From NCBI RefSeq assembly GCF_004959925.1, contig NZ_SPUW01000003.1:186001-250000 (forward strand): a stretch of 64,000 bases of DNA. The letters run 5' to 3'. Source of the stretch: Pseudooceanicola onchidii (GTDB taxonomy: Bacteria > Pseudomonadota > Alphaproteobacteria > Rhodobacterales > Rhodobacteraceae). Of this stretch, positions 2,348 through 10,536 are shown piece by piece. The translations under genes and the position numbers were made by a program. The notes under the pieces were generated by a model. That model was given only the letters and a program-made list of their open reading frames with translations. It did not search any database and was not told the origin of the DNA. The stretch's first letter is position 1. Each line of letters begins with the position of its first letter.

Positions 2348-3864
2348 GGCGCTTGATCCTTGTGCTGGGGGACCAGCTGTCGCCCGATCTGGCGGTGCTG
2401 CGCGACGGTGATCCGGAGCGGGACATTGTGGTGATGGCCGAGGTTGCGGACGAGACCGGCTATGTGCCGCATCACCCCAAGAAGATCGCGCTGATCCTGT
2501 CGGCGATGCGGCACTTTGCCGAGGATCTGCGCGCAGATGGTTGGGACGTGCGTTATTTCCGGCTGGACGAGGACGGGCCGAAGTCGATCTGCGGTGCGCT
2601 CATGCAGGTGCATCAGGACGTGCAGCCCGAGGAGGTCGTGGCCGTCCGTCCCGGCGAATTCCGCCTGATCGACGCGCTCGAGGCCTGCCCCGTCGGGGTG
2701 CGGCTGGTGGAGGACGACCGGTTCCTGTGCCCGATCGACCGCTTCCGCGACTGGGCCGAAGGCCGCAGGGAGCTGCGGATGGAATGGTTCTATCGCGAGA
2801 TGCGGCGCAACACCGGGGTCCTGATGGACGCGGACGATCCGGCCGGGGGCGAGTGGAATTACGACAAACAGAACCGCAAGCCCGCGCAACGCTCCATGCT
2901 GCAGGCGAAACCGATGGAATTCACTCCGGACGAGATCACCGAGGGCGTGCTGGCCATGGTGGGCGACCGGTTCGGCGGGAATTTCGGGTCTCTGGCTGGG
3001 TTTACCTTCGGCGTCACCCAGGGGCAGGCGCGGCGCGCGCTGAGCCATTTCGTCAAGACCCAGCTGGCGGAGTTCGGCGATTACCAGGACGCGATGCTGC
3101 TGGATGAGCCGTATCTGAATCACGCGCTGATCTCGATCTACATGAACATCGGGTTGCTGTCCCCGCGCGAGGTCTGCGAGGCCGCCGAGGCCGCCTATCG
3201 CGACGGGGATGTGCCGATCAATTCGGCCGAGGGGTTCATCCGGCAGATCCTTGGCTGGCGGGAATACATCCGGGGGATCTATTTCCTGAAGGGGCCCGAC
3301 TATACCGCGCAGAACGAGCTGGGGCATGACCGCGATCTTCCGGCGTCCTACTGGGGCGGCGAGACGGAGATGGCCTGCATCCGGGCCGCCGTGGGCCAGA
3401 CCCATGATCTGGCCTATGCGCACCATATCCAGCGGCTGATGGTGACCGGGAACTTTGCGCTGCTTTTCGGGGCGGACCCGGCGCAGGTGCACGAATGGTA
3501 TCTGTCGGTCTATGCGGATGCGTTTGAATGGGTCGAGGCGCCGAACACGATCGGCATGTCGCAATGGGCCGACGGGGGCGTGGTGGCGTCAAAACCCTAT
3601 GTGTCCTCGGCCAATTACATCAAGAAGATGTCGGACTATTGCGAGGGCTGCGCCTACAAGCCGGACGTGAAGGTGGGCGAGGGGGCGTGCCCGTTCAACC
3701 TGCTCTACTGGCACTTCCTCGACCGGCATCGCGAGAGGTTCGAGGGCAACCGGCGGATGGGGGTCGTGTATTCATCCTGGGACAAGATGGACAAGGCCAA
3801 GCGTGACCAGATCCTGGAGGAGGCGGAGGCCTTCATCGCGGCCGAACCGACGGGCTATCCATAA
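2341..3864 (+). CDS. FeS-type (6-4) photolyase / CryB-like cryptochrome
   Basis: A 507-aa member of the iron-sulfur bacterial cryptochrome/photolyase (FeS-BCP) family, including Agrobacterium PhrB and Rhodobacter CryB. These bind FAD, a lumazine antenna and a [4Fe-4S] cluster and repair (6-4) photoproducts. Four cysteines at 346, 434, 437 and 450 keep exactly the spacing of PhrB's cluster ligands (88, 3, 13), all shifted by four. The N-terminus ([20 protein letters not shown]) is the DUF523-like antenna domain. The C-terminal FAD domain includes [15 protein letters not shown]. The start overlaps the SDR gene. Probable role is light-driven DNA repair or light signalling. Confidence 0.93.
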
Positions 3865-3922
3865 GGAACATTCCGGGCCGGGCCGGGTTGGTCGTGAGAC
3901 CACCCCACAGAGAGGCCATGCC

Positions 3923-5452
3923 ATGACACGCGACACCCGCGTTCCCCCGACCACGACCGATGCCGGTATCCCTGTTCAGAGCGACGAACATTCGCTGACC
4001 GTCGGCCCCGACGGCCCGATTGTCCTGAACGATCACTACCTGCTTGAGCAGATGGCGAATTTCAACCGCGAGCGGATCCCCGAACGCCAGCCTCATGCCA
4101 AGGGCGGCGGAGCGTTTGGCTATTTCGAGGTCACGAACGACGTGTCGAAATACACCAAGGCCTCGGTCTTTCAGCCCGGCGCCAAGGTCGACTTGGTTGC
4201 TCGGTTCTCGACCGTGGCGGGCGAACGCGGCAGCCCCGACACCTGGCGCGATCCGCGCGGTTTCTCGGTCAAGATGTACACCGACGAGGGCAACTTCGAC
4301 ATGGTGGGCAACAACACGCCCGTCTTCTTCATCCGCGATCCGATGAAGTTTCAGCACTTCATCCGGTCCCAAAAACGCCGTGCCGACAATGATATGCGCG
4401 ATCATGACATGCAGTGGGATTTCTGGACGCTGTCGCCCGAGAGCGCGCACCAGGTGGCCTATCTGATGGGCGACCGGGGCATTCCGAAGACCTGGCGCGA
4501 GATGAACGGCTATTCCTCGCACACCTATTCGCTGGTCAATGCCAAGGGCGAGAAGTTCTGGGTCAAGTTCCACTTCATGACCGATCAGGGCGACGGCAAC
4601 GCCTATCTGAGCCAGGAGGAGGCCGACAAGCTGGCAGGCACGGACGGCGATTATCACCGCCGGGATCTCTTCGACGCGATCCGGGACGGCAACCACCCCA
4701 GCTGGACGCTGAAATGGCAGGTCATGCCCTTTGAGGACGCCAAGACTTACCGGATCAATCCTTTCGATTTGACCAAGGTCTGGCCGCACGCCGATTACCC
4801 GCTGATCGAGGTCGGCCGGATGGTGCTGGACCGCAACCCGACCGATTTCCACACCCAGATCGAACAGGCCGCGTTCGAGCCCAACAACATGGTGCCGGGC
4901 GTCGGCCTGTCGCCGGACAAGATGCTGCTGGCGCGGGGTTTTTCCTACGCCGACGCACATCGCGCGCGGCTGGGCGTGAACTACAAGCAGATCCCGGTGA
5001 ACAGCGCCCAGGCGCCGGTGCATTCCTATTCCAAGGACGGGGCGGGGCGCACGATGCCCGTGTCGGACCCGGTCTATGCGCCGAACTCCTACGGCGGCCC
5101 CGCCGCGCAACCATCGCCGCACGAGGCGGGCGTTTGGTACACCGACGGAGAGATGCAGCGGTCGGCCTACACCCTGCGCGAGGATGACGACGACTGGAGC
5201 CAGGCCCACGCGCTGGTGCGCGAGGTCATGGACGACGCGATGCGCGAGCGACTGGTCGGCAACGTGGTCGGGCACCTGTGCGATGGCGTCAGTGAAAAGG
5301 TTCTGGTCCGAGCGTTTGAGTACTGGAAAAACATCGACGCCGAGGTCGGCCAGCAGATCGAGGCCGGCGTCCGCGAGAAGCTGGGCGGAGAGTCCAAGGC
5401 CGAGGGGCTGGCGTCGGCCGAGAGCGTGGAACGGAAGCTGGCGGCGGAGTGA
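3923..5452 (+). CDS. katA: Monofunctional heme catalase
   Basis: A 509-aa small-subunit catalase that disproportionates H2O2. The distal His lies in [15 protein letters not shown]. The distal Asn region reads [15 protein letters not shown], and the proximal heme Tyr lies in [14 protein letters not shown]. Length and motifs are those of clade 3 enzymes. The chosen ATG follows AGAGG; the ATG five bases upstream is out of frame and stops at once. It lies 58 bp after the photolyase on the same strand, so it may share oxidative or light-stress control. A strong terminator follows. Confidence 0.97.
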
Positions 5453-5479
5453 GGCTGTCAGGATGATGAGAGAGGGGAG

Positions 5480-5503
5480 GGCCGACCGGGAGGTCGGCCT
5501 TTT
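5480..5503 (+). terminator. Rho-independent terminator after katA
   Basis: The 8-bp stem GGCCGACC/GGTCGGCC has a 4-nt loop and is followed by TTTT. Confidence 0.85.
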
Positions 5504-5622
5504 CTCGAAGATCCCGATTTTTTTGTGCTTCGATCAGTCCGCCTCCGTGGGCAATTACGGTGGAACTCAGAAGAAATGTGGGTCCGAGCCAGCAACAAGC
5601 TGGGGAAGGTGCGAGCTGCCAA

Positions 5623-6435
5623 TCACAGTTCAACTCCGTTGTTCTCAAAGTACTGTTTGAGTGCGTAAATTCTTTCTGCGTAGGTTATGAACTGCCCTAG
5701 GTTAGCTAGAATCACACCCTTGTCTAAGTCCGGAATAATCTGTGGGTGTCCAACCTTATTTCGTGAAAACCTGTAATAGTTGAACGCGTTGTCCAAAAGG
5801 TGGGTTAGGTCTTGGGTTATCACTTGATCTGTTGGCTTGTTCTTGCAGCCTGCGTACGAAGACTTGAATTCCTCGTATTTTTTCGAAATCATTTTGCCGT
5901 TAGTCCGTTGCGAAAATCGTTCCCGGTTCGCGTCCAATTTGATGCTGTTGGTATAGGCCTCAATAAGTATAAGGATCGCTTTTTCACTTGCTGCTCCGAG
6001 CATGAAAGCGGCTCCGGCAGGGCTGTTTGACTTGAAGCACTTCATAGATTCTTGAAAAAACCATATCACCACGTCATCACATTCCGGGACCCTTTCTTTG
6101 AGTGTCTCAGGAAACTTCTCAATGTCGGCGGGGAGTATGGCGCCGGGTGCTGCGGTTCCTCTTTCGATAGAACGTTTCAGCTCCTCCAACCAAGTCTTTA
6201 ACTCGGAAGCTCTACCCTCTACATGGAGTTTTCCAGTGTTGTAGACATTAATTGATGCTGTGTTCGCGCCAGATTTGCATCTGTACCGCGTGGCGTTTTG
6301 TATTTCTTCCTCAATGAAGGATAGCCCGTTCGCTTTTAGGTGGTTGCTTACGACCTCGCACTGCTTCTCGTCGCCATTGCTCATGCTGAAAAACCGTTTT
6401 ATTGCTCGCGCAATGCAATTTGTTACTTCTGGCAC
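5623..6435 (-). CDS. Orphan HEPN-like protein, low GC (possible RNase/defence factor)
   Basis: A 270-aa protein I cannot assign to a named family. Residues 45-75 (RYRCKSGANTAS.., VYNTGKLHVEGRA) look like the small TBP-like domain seen at the N-terminus of several nuclease and toxin proteins. Residues about 110-265 are all-helical and end in FSRNKVGHP, an R-x4-H motif (R225-H230) typical of HEPN/DUF4145-like domains, many of which are RNases. Base composition is near 43-45% GC, against about 65% for its neighbours, which indicates horizontal acquisition. The start is GTG, with an alternative ATG at residue 18; neither has a clear SD. It sits 59 bp downstream of purK with no antitoxin-like partner. 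Confidence 0.6.
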   Translation of the reverse strand: MPEVTNCIARAIKRFFSMSNGDEKQCEVVSNHLKANGLSFIEEEIQNATRYRCKSGANTASINVYNTGKLHVEGRASELKTWLEELKRSIERGTAAPGAILPADIEKFPETLKERVPECDDVVIWFFQESMKCFKSNSPAGAAFMLGAASEKAILILIEAYTNSIKLDANRERFSQRTNGKMISKKYEEFKSSYAGCKNKPTDQVITQDLTHLLDNAFNYYRFSRNKVGHPQIIPDLDKGVILANLGQFITYAERIYALKQYFENNGVEL

Positions 6436-6494
6436 ACGGAGGCAAGTCTAATCGCCGAGGCTTTGGCCGAAATTAAAAGCACTGACCAAAGGTT

Positions 6495-7559
6495 TCACCC
6501 AACCCTATTCACATGCCCCATCTTCCGCCCGGCTTTGACCTCGGCTTTGCCGTACAGATGCACGGCGACGCTGGCCTCTTTGACCAGCTCGGGCACGCGG
6601 TCCATGTCGTCGCCGATCAGGTTCTCCATCATCACGTCGGCGTGGCGTGATCCGTCGCCCAGGGGCCAGCCGACCACGGCGCGGATGTGTTGTTCGAACT
6701 GGTCTACCACGCAGCCGTTCTGGGTCCAGTGGCCCGAATTGTGCACGCGCGGGGCGATCTCGTTCACGATCAGGCCCTTGGGGGTGACGAAAAGCTCAAC
6801 GCCCATGACGCCGACATAATCTAGCGCGTTCAGGATTTTGGCGGCCAGCAGCACAGCGTCCGTGCGGGCCGAGGCGGGGAGGGTGGCGGGGACGGTCGTG
6901 GTGCGCAGGATGCCGCCCTCGTGCACGTTTTCGCCCGGGTCATAGCAGGCGACCGACCCGTCGAGGCCACGCGCGGCGATGATCGACACTTCGGTGGTGA
7001 AGTCGACGAAGCCTTCGAGCACGGCCGGGGCGCCGTTCATTTCGGCCAGCGCCCGTGCCGCGTCCTCGGGCGATCGCAGGCGGGCCTGGCCCTTGCCGTC
7101 ATAGCCGAAGCGGCGGGTCTTCAGGATCGAGGGCGCGCCGATCGTGTCCATCGCGCGGTCCATCGCGTCGGCGTCGGGGATGTCGGCATAGGGCGCGACC
7201 TGCAGGCCGAGGTCGGTCAGGAAATCCTTTTCGGTCAGGCGGTCCTGCGAGATGCGCAGCGCTTCGCGACCCGGGCGGATGGGTTTGATCTTTTCAAGAA
7301 TATCCAGAGCAGAGGTGGGGATGTTTTCGAATTCGTAAGTAATCACGTCCACACTGTCGGCGAAGCGGCGCAGGGCGGCGTCGTCGGTGTACTCGGCCTG
7401 GAGGTGATAGTTGGCAACATGGGATGCGGGACAGTCGCCGCCGGGTTCGAAAATGACGGTCTTGAAGCCAAGGCGCGATGCCGCGACGGACAGCATCCGG
7501 CCCAGCTGGCCGCCACCAAGGATGCCGATGGTGGACCCGGTCGGAAGCATGTCAGTCAT
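6495..7559 (-). CDS. purK: N5-carboxyaminoimidazole ribonucleotide synthase
   Basis: ATP-grasp enzyme of purine synthesis that carboxylates AIR with bicarbonate. Signature regions are GGGQLGRML near the N-terminus, the ATP-grasp segment [12 protein letters not shown] and [14 protein letters not shown] near the C-terminus. About 354 aa. I prefer the ATG at 7559, which overlaps the purE stop (ATGACTGA). An upstream in-frame ATG at 7571 would extend it by four residues. It forms an operon with purE and is followed on the same strand by the HEPN-like gene. Confidence 0.96.
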
Positions 7560-8040
7560 CGGAAGGCTCATCAGGAATGGAGTTCGACAGGGCCTCGCGC
7601 CAGATGTCGAGGCGTTCGGCCAGCGCCGGATCGCTGATCGCGAGGATCCCGGCGGCCATCAGGCCCGCGTTGGCTGCCCCGGCAGATCCGATGGCCATGG
7701 TCGCGACCGGGAAGCCCTTGGGCATCTGGACGATGGAGTAGAGACTGTCGACACCCGACAGCGCGCGGGTCTGAACTGGCACGCCGATCACCGGCACGCG
7801 GGTCTTCGACGCCATCATGCCGGGCAGGTGCGCGGCCCCGCCGGCGCCCGCGATGATGACATGCAGACCCCGGTCCGCCGCGGTCTTGCCGTAGGTCCAG
7901 AGCCGGTCTGGCGTGCGATGCGCCGAGACGATCCTGGTCTCATAGGCCACGCCAAGTTCCTCGAGGATGGTCGCCGCCTCTTTCATCGTGGGCCAGTCGG
8001 ACTGGCTGCCCATGATGATGCCTACCTTGATATCCGCCAT
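7552..8040 (-). CDS. purE: 5-(carboxyamino)imidazole ribonucleotide mutase
   Basis: A 162-aa class I PurE that converts the PurK product N5-CAIR to CAIR. Motifs seen are [10 protein letters not shown] (substrate loop), SAHRTPDR and [11 protein letters not shown]. It overlaps purK by 8 nt. The start is ATG at 8040. The upstream region contains a 12-bp tandem duplication (8109-8132) shared with the divergent helicase gene. Confidence 0.97.
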
Positions 8041-8132: not shown

Positions 8133-8247
8133 TGTCCCGGGGGCCACAGGGGCAAATCTTTCATATACAGGCGGGCTGGAGTAGGCTAGAGGGGCGCTTT
8201 CCCGGCGCGCCACGATGCTGTGCCGGCCTCTTACAGACGGTTTCCAG

Positions 8248-10536
8248 ATGATCCAGACCCTTGCCGATGCGCTGTCCGAGCGCGGATATGACACGCTTAC
8301 CCCGGTCCAGGACGCCGTGACCAACCCCGAATATGCGGATGCCGACCTGTTGGTGTCCGCGCAGACCGGGTCCGGCAAGACCGTGGGCTTCGGTCTGGCG
8401 ATCGCAGGCACGCTGCTGGGCGGGGCGGACGTGATGGGCCCTGTTGCCGCGCCGCTGGCGCTGATCGTGGCGCCGACGCGGGAACTGGCCTTCCAGGTCT
8501 GCCGTGAGCTTGGCTGGCTCTACGCCAAGACCGGGGCGCGCGTGACGTCCTGCGTGGGCGGCATGGACATGCGCGATGAACGCCGTGCGCTGGAACGCGG
8601 CGCGCATATCGTCGTGGGCACGCCCGGACGTCTGGTCGATCACATCAAGCGCGGATCGCTCGACATGACGGGGCTGAAGGCCATCGTCCTGGACGAGGCG
8701 GACGAGATGCTGGATTTGGGCTTCCGCGAGGATCTGGAATTCATGCTGGGCGAGGCGCCCGAAGATCGCCGCACGCTCATGTTCTCGGCCACGGTGCCGC
8801 CGATGATCGCCAAGCTGGCCGAACAGTTCCAGCGTGACGCCGTGCGCGTGACCACCCTGTCCGACAAGGGCCAGCATGCGGACATCGCCTACCAGGCGCT
8901 GCAGGTGGCGCAGCAGGACGTGGAAAACGCGGTGATCAACGTGCTGCGCTTCCACGAAGCGGAAAACGCCATCGTCTTTGCCAACACCCGGGCGACCGTG
9001 AACCGGCTGACCGCGCGTTTCTCCAACCGGGGCTTTTCGGTGGTGTCGCTGTCGGGAGAGCTGAGCCAGGCCGAACGCAGCCATGCGTTGCAGGCGATGC
9101 GCGACGGGCGCGCTCGGGTCTGCGTGGCGACCGACGTGGCCGCGCGCGGGATCGACCTGCCGGGGCTTGAGCTGGTGGTGCACGCCGAACTTCCGTCGAA
9201 TTCCGAAACCCTGCTGCACCGCTCGGGCCGGACGGGCCGTGCCGGGCGCAAGGGCGTGTCAGCTCTGATCGTGCCGCCGCGGTCGGTCAAGAAGGCCGAG
9301 CGTCTGTTGAAATTCGCCAAGGTGCAGGCCGAGTGGGTGGAAGCCCCCAGTGCAGACGCCATCCTGGCGCGGGACGAGGAACGGCTGCTGGCCGATCCCG
9401 CCTGGCAGGATACGCCGAGTGAGGGTGACGCCGCCTTTGCCGCCCGCCTGCTTGAGGCGCAATCGGCCGAGGCCATCGCGGTGGCCTTCCTGCGCCTTTA
9501 CCGCGACCGTCACTGCGCGCCCGAGGATCTGTCGGCGCCCGATGCGCGGCCTGCCCGGAAGGAACGTGAACCCTTCGGTCCGAGCGTCTGGTATTCGCTT
9601 TCGGTCGGTCAGGAAGACCGGGCCGAAGCGCGCTGGCTGTTGCCGCTGATCCTGCGGTCCGGGCGGCTGGAAAAGTCCGCCATCGGTGCGATCCGCGTGC
9701 AGGGGGGTGAAACCTTTGTCGAGATCGCCGAAGCGGCGGCCGACAATTTCGAAGGGGCGCTTGGCCCGGGCGGCATCCTTGAAGAAGGCGTTGCCGCAAC
9801 CCGTCTGGCCGAGGCGCCCGTACTGGCCCCGCTGCCGCCGCGTGGCAAACCGTCGGGGCCGCGTGGCCCCCGCCGCGATCGCGAGGATCGCCCCGAGGGC
9901 GAGCGCCGCCCGCGTCGGGAGTTCGATGGCGATCGGCCGAAGCCCCGCGACTTTGATGGGGACCGCCCGAAGAAGCGTTTTGACGACGACCGTCCCAAGA
10001 AGCGGTTTGATGATGATCGTCCCAAGAAGCGGTTTGATGATGATCGCCCGAAGAAGCGCTTTGACGAGGACCGTCCGAAGAAACGGTTCGATGAGGACCG
10101 CCCGAAGAAACGCTTTGACGACGACCGTCCCAAGCGGTTCGACGATGGCGCCCGGCCTGACCGCAAGCCCTTCGCTCCGAAAGGGGAGGGCAAGCCTTAT
10201 GGCCAGAAGCGGGACGACCGTGGGGATGCGCCGCGCAAGCCGCGGGCCGCAGCCGAGGCCGCGCCGGGCAACCCCAAGAAGGTCTGGGGCAAACCTGCCG
10301 GTAAACCTGCGCGGGACGATCGGCCCGGCGGCTTTGGCAAGCCGCGCGGTGACGGGGAACGCGGGCCCAGGCCGGGCGGCAAGCCTTTTGGCAAACCCGG
10401 CGGCAAACCCGGTGGAAAGCCTGCGGGCAAGAGCTTTGGCAAGCCCGGGGGCAAGCCTGCCGGCAAGCCAGGCGCCAAACCGGGCGGCAAGCCCAAACCG
10501 GGCGGGTTCCAGACCCCGCGCCGACCCAAGTCATAA
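8248..10536 (+). CDS. DEAD-box RNA helicase with DbpA-like domain and repeat tail
   Basis: A 762-aa ATP-dependent RNA helicase of the DeaD/CsdA type, acting in ribosome assembly or cold-stress RNA remodelling. Motifs in order: Q motif TLTPVQ (17-21), AQTGSGKT (38-45), PTRELA, DEAD (149-152), SAT, and HRSGRTGRAGRKG. A DbpA-type RNA-binding domain follows around residues 450-515. The last 250 residues are basic and repetitive: seven near-identical 9-aa DRPKKRFDD units, then GKPGGKP-type repeats. The ATG at 8248 fits the family N-terminus (MIQTLADALSERGYDTLTPV) better than the in-frame ATG at 8215. Confidence 0.93.
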   Translation: MIQTLADALSERGYDTLTPVQDAVTNPEYADADLLVSAQTGSGKTVGFGLAIAGTLLGGADVMGPVAAPLALIVAPTRELAFQVCRELGWLYAKTGARVTSCVGGMDMRDERRALERGAHIVVGTPGRLVDHIKRGSLDMTGLKAIVLDEADEMLDLGFREDLEFMLGEAPEDRRTLMFSATVPPMIAKLAEQFQRDAVRVTTLSDKGQHADIAYQALQVAQQDVENAVINVLRFHEAENAIVFANTRATVNRLTARFSNRGFSVVSLSGELSQAERSHALQAMRDGRARVCVATDVAARGIDLPGLELVVHAELPSNSETLLHRSGRTGRAGRKGVSALIVPPRSVKKAERLLKFAKVQAEWVEAPSADAILARDEERLLADPAWQDTPSEGDAAFAARLLEAQSAEAIAVAFLRLYRDRHCAPEDLSAPDARPARKEREPFGPSVWYSLSVGQEDRAEARWLLPLILRSGRLEKSAIGAIRVQGGETFVEIAEAAADNFEGALGPGGILEEGVAATRLAEAPVLAPLPPRGKPSGPRGPRRDREDRPEGERRPRREFDGDRPKPRDFDGDRPKKRFDDDRPKKRFDDDRPKKRFDDDRPKKRFDEDRPKKRFDEDRPKKRFDDDRPKRFDDGARPDRKPFAPKGEGKPYGQKRDDRGDAPRKPRAAAEAAPGNPKKVWGKPAGKPARDDRPGGFGKPRGDGERGPRPGGKPFGKPGGKPGGKPAGKSFGKPGGKPAGKPGAKPGGKPKPGGFQTPRRPKS
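9961..10146 (+). repeat. 27-bp coding minisatellite, 7 units
   Basis: Units begin at 9961, 9988, 10015, 10042, 10069, 10096 and 10123. Each encodes DRPKKRF plus two acidic residues; the last lacks one Lys codon. Codon choice drifts between units (GAC/GAT, CGT/CGC), so the array is not brand new. Confidence 0.9.

Follow-up and report, generated by a model that had tools for sequence, protein, structure and literature searches.

Why does a single gene of low GC content lie between katA and purK in Pseudooceanicola onchidii, and what might its product do there? The gene stands out in the window, by which we mean the whole 64,000-nucleotide stretch of DNA analyzed, and an initial annotation described it as a low-GC orphan with a HEPN signature. 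On the analysis presented here, it is reasonably probable that this is an anti-phage gene that stands alone and was gained by horizontal transfer, and that its product would be a HEPN endoribonuclease resembling RNase LS but working without RnlB.

The gene and its product

The open reading frame and both of its flanks were confirmed. The gene runs on the minus strand, with katA (3923–5452, plus strand) on one side and purK (6495–7571, minus strand) on the other. The initial annotation placed it at 5623–6435, with the start at a GTG. Since the full-length relatives start at the codon matching ATG 6384 (MSNGDEK...) and also share the end of the gene, the start was moved to this ATG. The coding sequence is therefore 5623–6384 and specifies a solo TBP-like/HEPN protein of 253 residues; the additional 17 residues obtained by starting at GTG 6435 probably do not belong to it. 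The GC content measures 46.6% instead of the 43–45% first given, and the low GC itself holds: 762-base stretches of the window average 64.9 ± 3.1%, so that the gene lies 5.9 standard deviations below the mean and is the sole such stretch under 52%. A scan for a promoter and a terminator gave nothing convincing.

The catalytic-type motif R-N-K-V-G-H, noticed at the outset, is present at nt 5746–5763 of the minus strand. Its arginine and histidine are real, yet their numbering as R225 and H230 does not survive the start correction and becomes R208 and H213. R208-N209-x-x-G212-H213 is invariant in 13 of 13 aligned relatives, the most distant of which is 17% identical. The HEPN superfamily motif is defined as Rx4-6H with a polar residue after the arginine (PMC3710099), and the window protein, with its Rx4H and asparagine, carries this arrangement.

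An AlphaFold2 model from a 13-row alignment (pLDDT 84.5) consists of a helix, four strands and a helix (residues 1–76), a loose linker, and a helical bundle (residues 88–249). The bundle, encoded at 5638–6123 of the minus strand, is the HEPN domain. Structure prediction followed by a fold search had been set beforehand as the test that could refute the HEPN assignment, and HEPN similarity was found. In the Foldseek comparison with the PDB, E. coli RnlA (6y2s, 6y2q) ranks first (6y2s, E 0.047) and third (E 0.089), and the HEPN protein 2hsb (target TM 0.58) and the HEPN-like protein 2q00 (target TM 0.59–0.61) are also matched; these E-values are weak, with none in the PDB below 0.001. Among viral models the top match is an RNaseLS-like protein (E 1.5e-3, prob 0.99). 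Some homologs touch Pfam HEPN_Apea and DUF4145 weakly, below the curated cut-offs. Models of Pfam, NCBIfam and PHROG do not recognize the protein above threshold, and those of PADLOC do so weakly. Given the invariant motif and the predicted bundle, we regard the HEPN assignment as firm.

The N-terminal domain (residues 1–76; 6157–6384, minus strand) has the secondary structure a-b-b-b-b-a in AlphaFold2 models (pLDDT 85) and is probably TBP/RNase HIII-N-like. The TBP-like motif initially proposed for it is weakly borne out. In single homologs there are faint matches to Pfam TBP (E 0.021) and to DUF3378 (E 0.041), the latter being the N-terminal domain of RNase HIII, and PADLOC PDC-S35 weakly matches 60 residues of the domain in three members (E about 1e-3). 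The model and the fold search agree on the order of an alpha/beta domain followed by HEPN; the N-terminal domain alone finds weak matches only, RnlA among them (E 0.36). Sub-threshold matches to DUF7888, DUF4443 and PDB sequences have no plausible link to the protein and were discarded.

Comparison with known systems

RnlA, the RNase LS of E. coli, is the best solved fold match, and its HEPN domain with Rx4H likewise comes after alpha/beta domain(s). Within the RNase LS group, members that join a TBP-like domain to HEPN have been described; this TBP-like domain is of the RNase HIII type and is thought to bind RNA-DNA hybrids, and the gene stands in an operon with RnlB (PMC3710099). However, RnlA has 357 residues and two N-terminal domains (RnlA_toxin_N and RnlA_toxin), whereas the window protein has 253 residues and one such domain, and it is without RnlB. 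No companion reading frame lies beside it in the window or is conserved in the homolog loci, and a search of the own genome gave no RnlB match, the latter a weak result since the search control gave no signal either. K-12 RnlA matches all four RnlA/RNase LS Pfam models, while none of the four matches the window protein (E ≤ 1) or any of 9 members (E ≤ 0.5), and a profile comparison with K-12 RnlA by hhalign gave Prob 0.1. Membership of RnlA by sequence is thereby rejected. Because the RnlA sequence models fail and RnlB is missing, the protein is classed as one working like RNase LS without being a member of it.

Other systems share single features with the protein. The DUF4145/ApeA-type defense proteins (e.g. 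BxaP, PMC10799925) are anti-phage proteins that contain a HEPN-type domain, and it is to these families that the weak Pfam matches of the relatives point, but their N-terminal domain is another one. The PADLOC candidate PDC-S35 is similar in the 60 N-terminal residues only, with the HEPN part outside the match. DS-11 (CBS-HEPN, PMC13092281) is a one-protein HEPN defense system with a regulating domain that has been shown to work; the likeness is one of architecture, with a CBS domain taking the place of the alpha/beta domain. The adjacent minimal nucleotidyltransferase that marks HEPN/MNT toxin-antitoxin systems is absent: the window neighbors are katA and purK, and none was recognized by eye among the neighbors in the homolog loci.

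Distribution and surroundings of the relatives

The gene is present in one copy in its own genome. The suggested check of presence and absence across relatives found no homolog in the 21 other genomes of the genus (profile search), in 396 other genomes of the family or in 384 other genomes of the class, and besides the own copy a phylum sample of 398 genomes yielded three matches that are distant or broken; the distribution scans use short peptide patterns, with which members can be missed. Single-sequence scans of genome contigs and viral contigs found nothing, nor did a close homolog used as the query against plasmid and phage records. An alignment of two distant plasmid homologs was needed to reach the close family: one from Mycobacterium marseillense (22.6% identity over 64%), and one from an Agrobacterium vitis plasmid that was found starting from the former. 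Directly after the M. marseillense relative lies a gene for 295 residues (L002:1381–2268) with no match in Pfam (E ≤ 1) or PADLOC.

The alignment-based search yielded seven viral contigs with full-length copies of 62–69% identity. Alignment of these copies as the query then yielded five bacterial genomes with copies of 58–68% identity, from Natronohydrobacter thiooxidans, Ramlibacter montanisoli, Comamonas suwonensis, Halomonas faecis and a Novosphingobium sp. Few close relatives (58–69% identity) exist, and they occur sporadically in alpha-, beta- and gammaproteobacteria and in prophages; their DNA similarity to the window gene is limited to the coding sequence. Because L063 and L071 are apparently one prophage, L061 and L062 one sequence, and L057, L058 and L060 near-copies, the loci represent about seven independent contexts. 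Low GC, absence from the other genomes searched in genus, family and class, and copies in such distant taxa bear out the original view of a transferred gene, and judged from these sequences, its horizontal transfer appears very firm.

The surroundings of the relatives are mobile and rich in defense genes. For instance, in L077/L078 a HEC-04 gene (E 1e-224) starts 38 bases downstream of the HEPN gene, and HEC-04 is reported to defend against T4 and T5 (PMC12111858). Both genes have about 50% GC in a contig of 69% GC that also carries a tail-fiber gene. In L075 the HEPN gene lies downstream of type III Mod (E 1e-191) and Res (E 5e-236), and a serine recombinase adjoins it (by eye). The Ramlibacter copy (L072) is directly behind a row of attC-like repeats; no attC was found after the gene, and no integrase was recognized nearby by eye. 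Another copy (L074) is behind a transposase fragment (by eye). Among distant relatives, which carry another N-terminal domain, one on the Agrobacterium plasmid is beside AbiE and CBASS genes, and one is adjoined by a HipA-like gene (by eye).

Phages are also among the carriers. In L063/L071 and metagenomic kin, the gene is antisense within a late operon; it is flanked by the tail terminator (phrog_4204) on one side and phrog_6367 on the other, and the surrounding genes include those for head, portal, terminase and tape measure. Between the phages L057–L060 and L063 the gene and its flanks share about 71–77% DNA identity at one fixed late-operon place, so it has been retained within this group of phages. 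The Comamonas copy (L073) is near an integrase, a Rha-type regulator and an endolysin. An 88-residue gene, 21 bases behind this copy (L073:10784–11050), shows a weak match to the final part of PADLOC CARF3 models (E 6.5e-5), and its product resembles a winged-helix protein. No partner gene recurs across the roughly seven independent loci, in agreement with the initial description of a single-gene system with no antitoxin beside it.

Proposed function and alternatives

From the company that the gene keeps, an anti-phage role is quite likely. Company alone is no proof of function, since the closest defense neighbors vary from locus to locus and defense genes are common on mobile DNA in general. 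The product would probably be a dimeric HEPN endoribonuclease in which the R208/H213 pair cuts RNA. Its N-terminal alpha/beta domain would probably bind nucleic acid, either as a substrate or as a signal, much as RNase HIII binds RNA-DNA hybrids through its TBP-like domain; nucleic-acid sensing by this domain is speculative, and we hold it to be possible at best. In the uninfected cell the protein would be inactive. Upon infection it would cut phage RNA, host RNA or both, and the infection would be aborted. What the analysis shows is the predicted fold, the invariant motif, the sporadic distribution, the mobile and defense-rich surroundings and the lack of a conserved antitoxin; RNase activity, dimerization, the anti-phage role, the trigger and the safety of a cell without antitoxin are what we infer.

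Alternatively, the gene may be a moron that serves phages. Its home would then be the prophage late operon, where it would aid the lysogen or the lytic cycle through lysogeny control or host RNA turnover, and the window copy would be a left-over. The fixed late-operon place kept in one phage group would also fit such a function, and the integrase, regulator and endolysin around the Comamonas copy point the same way. However, copies also lie outside recognizable phages, namely beside the type III restriction genes, after the attC array and in the window, and superinfection exclusion would count as phage defense too. We consider a phage-serving gene of this kind fairly unlikely. The gene could also encode a toxin, belonging to a toxin-antitoxin or addiction module in which the antitoxin is lost, unlinked or an RNA. 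The architecture is like that of the RnlAB toxin RnlA, HEPN proteins are frequently toxins (PMC3710099), and the HipA-like gene beside one distant relative speaks for it too; yet no companion recurs among the independent loci and no RnlB was found in the own genome, where the control was likewise silent, which leaves such a module unlikely. The sporadic distribution argues against a HEPN protein for host RNA processing or other housekeeping, and the invariance of Rx4H against a catalytically dead one; either would be very surprising.

If the gene is indeed a stand-alone anti-phage gene, it would provide a compact one-gene HEPN immune effector that requires no antitoxin, and the question would arise of what keeps a solo RNase quiet before infection. 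Its relatives across alpha-, beta- and gammaproteobacteria and prophages are missed by current defense catalogs, and a new model could be made for them.

The site behind purK

The segment between the photolyase-related gene and the convergent purK (3865–6494) is variable, with katA and the HEPN gene in the window and other genes in sister genomes. The sisters G789, G794 and G783 align with the window as far as the photolyase-related gene (about 3771–3834) and then again from precisely the purK stop (6495) onward. G789 has an alcohol phosphatidyltransferase-like gene of normal GC (by eye). The insert of G794 (L051:5459–6420, 50% GC) encodes a small membrane protein together with an M78/IrrE peptidase (PF06114, E 2.5e-20; PADLOC capP, 4e-30), and that of G783 (L052:11827–12597, 48% GC) contains a gene with a match to PADLOC PDC-S31 (E 5.7e-26). 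Low GC behind purK occurs in these two and the window genome, 3 of 22 genomes of the genus, which is a small number of cases. The cargo of the sisters is defense-like and not proven defense, because PDC-S31 has the status of a candidate and ordinary regulators, too, are found among M78 peptidases. The site lies between convergent genes, where an insertion should do least harm. The sisters likewise lack katA at the purK-side place; the gene most similar to it in the genus (G193:C13, 85% identity) is in other surroundings.

In all three cargo carriers the last bases of purK are GTTGGGT, in keeping with the attC core GTTRRRY. The purK 3′ end (window 6495–6515) reads GTTGGGTGA in the three and differs in the cargo-free sisters; this sequence may be inherited or may be a mark of recombination. 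The exact attC-core pattern from the purK end was not found in viral contigs, and 248 other family genomes gave only three matches, each with one mismatch. At the insert borders in the window, direct repeats are 9-base chance matches only and no attC was found. An integron cassette was rejected for the window copy, as no attC is beside the gene and the one pair of sites that could qualify overlaps the coding sequence. The search for an integron integrase in the own genome gave only general tyrosine recombinase matches below cut-off.

A broader reading joins these observations: a class of infection-triggered, antitoxin-free RNases whose N-terminal domain would sense phage-made nucleic acid such as RNA-DNA hybrids, together with a purK-side exchange site that would swap single defense genes of about 1 kb without a visible integrase. 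We regard this combination as doubtful. The swap of defense-like genes behind purK would offer a small and clean place for finding more unknown defense genes. Elsewhere the window contains a gene for a 773-residue DEAD-box helicase with C-terminal DDRPKKRF-type repeats (8215–10536); at this place four sisters have only about 65–220 bases between purE and the next gene.
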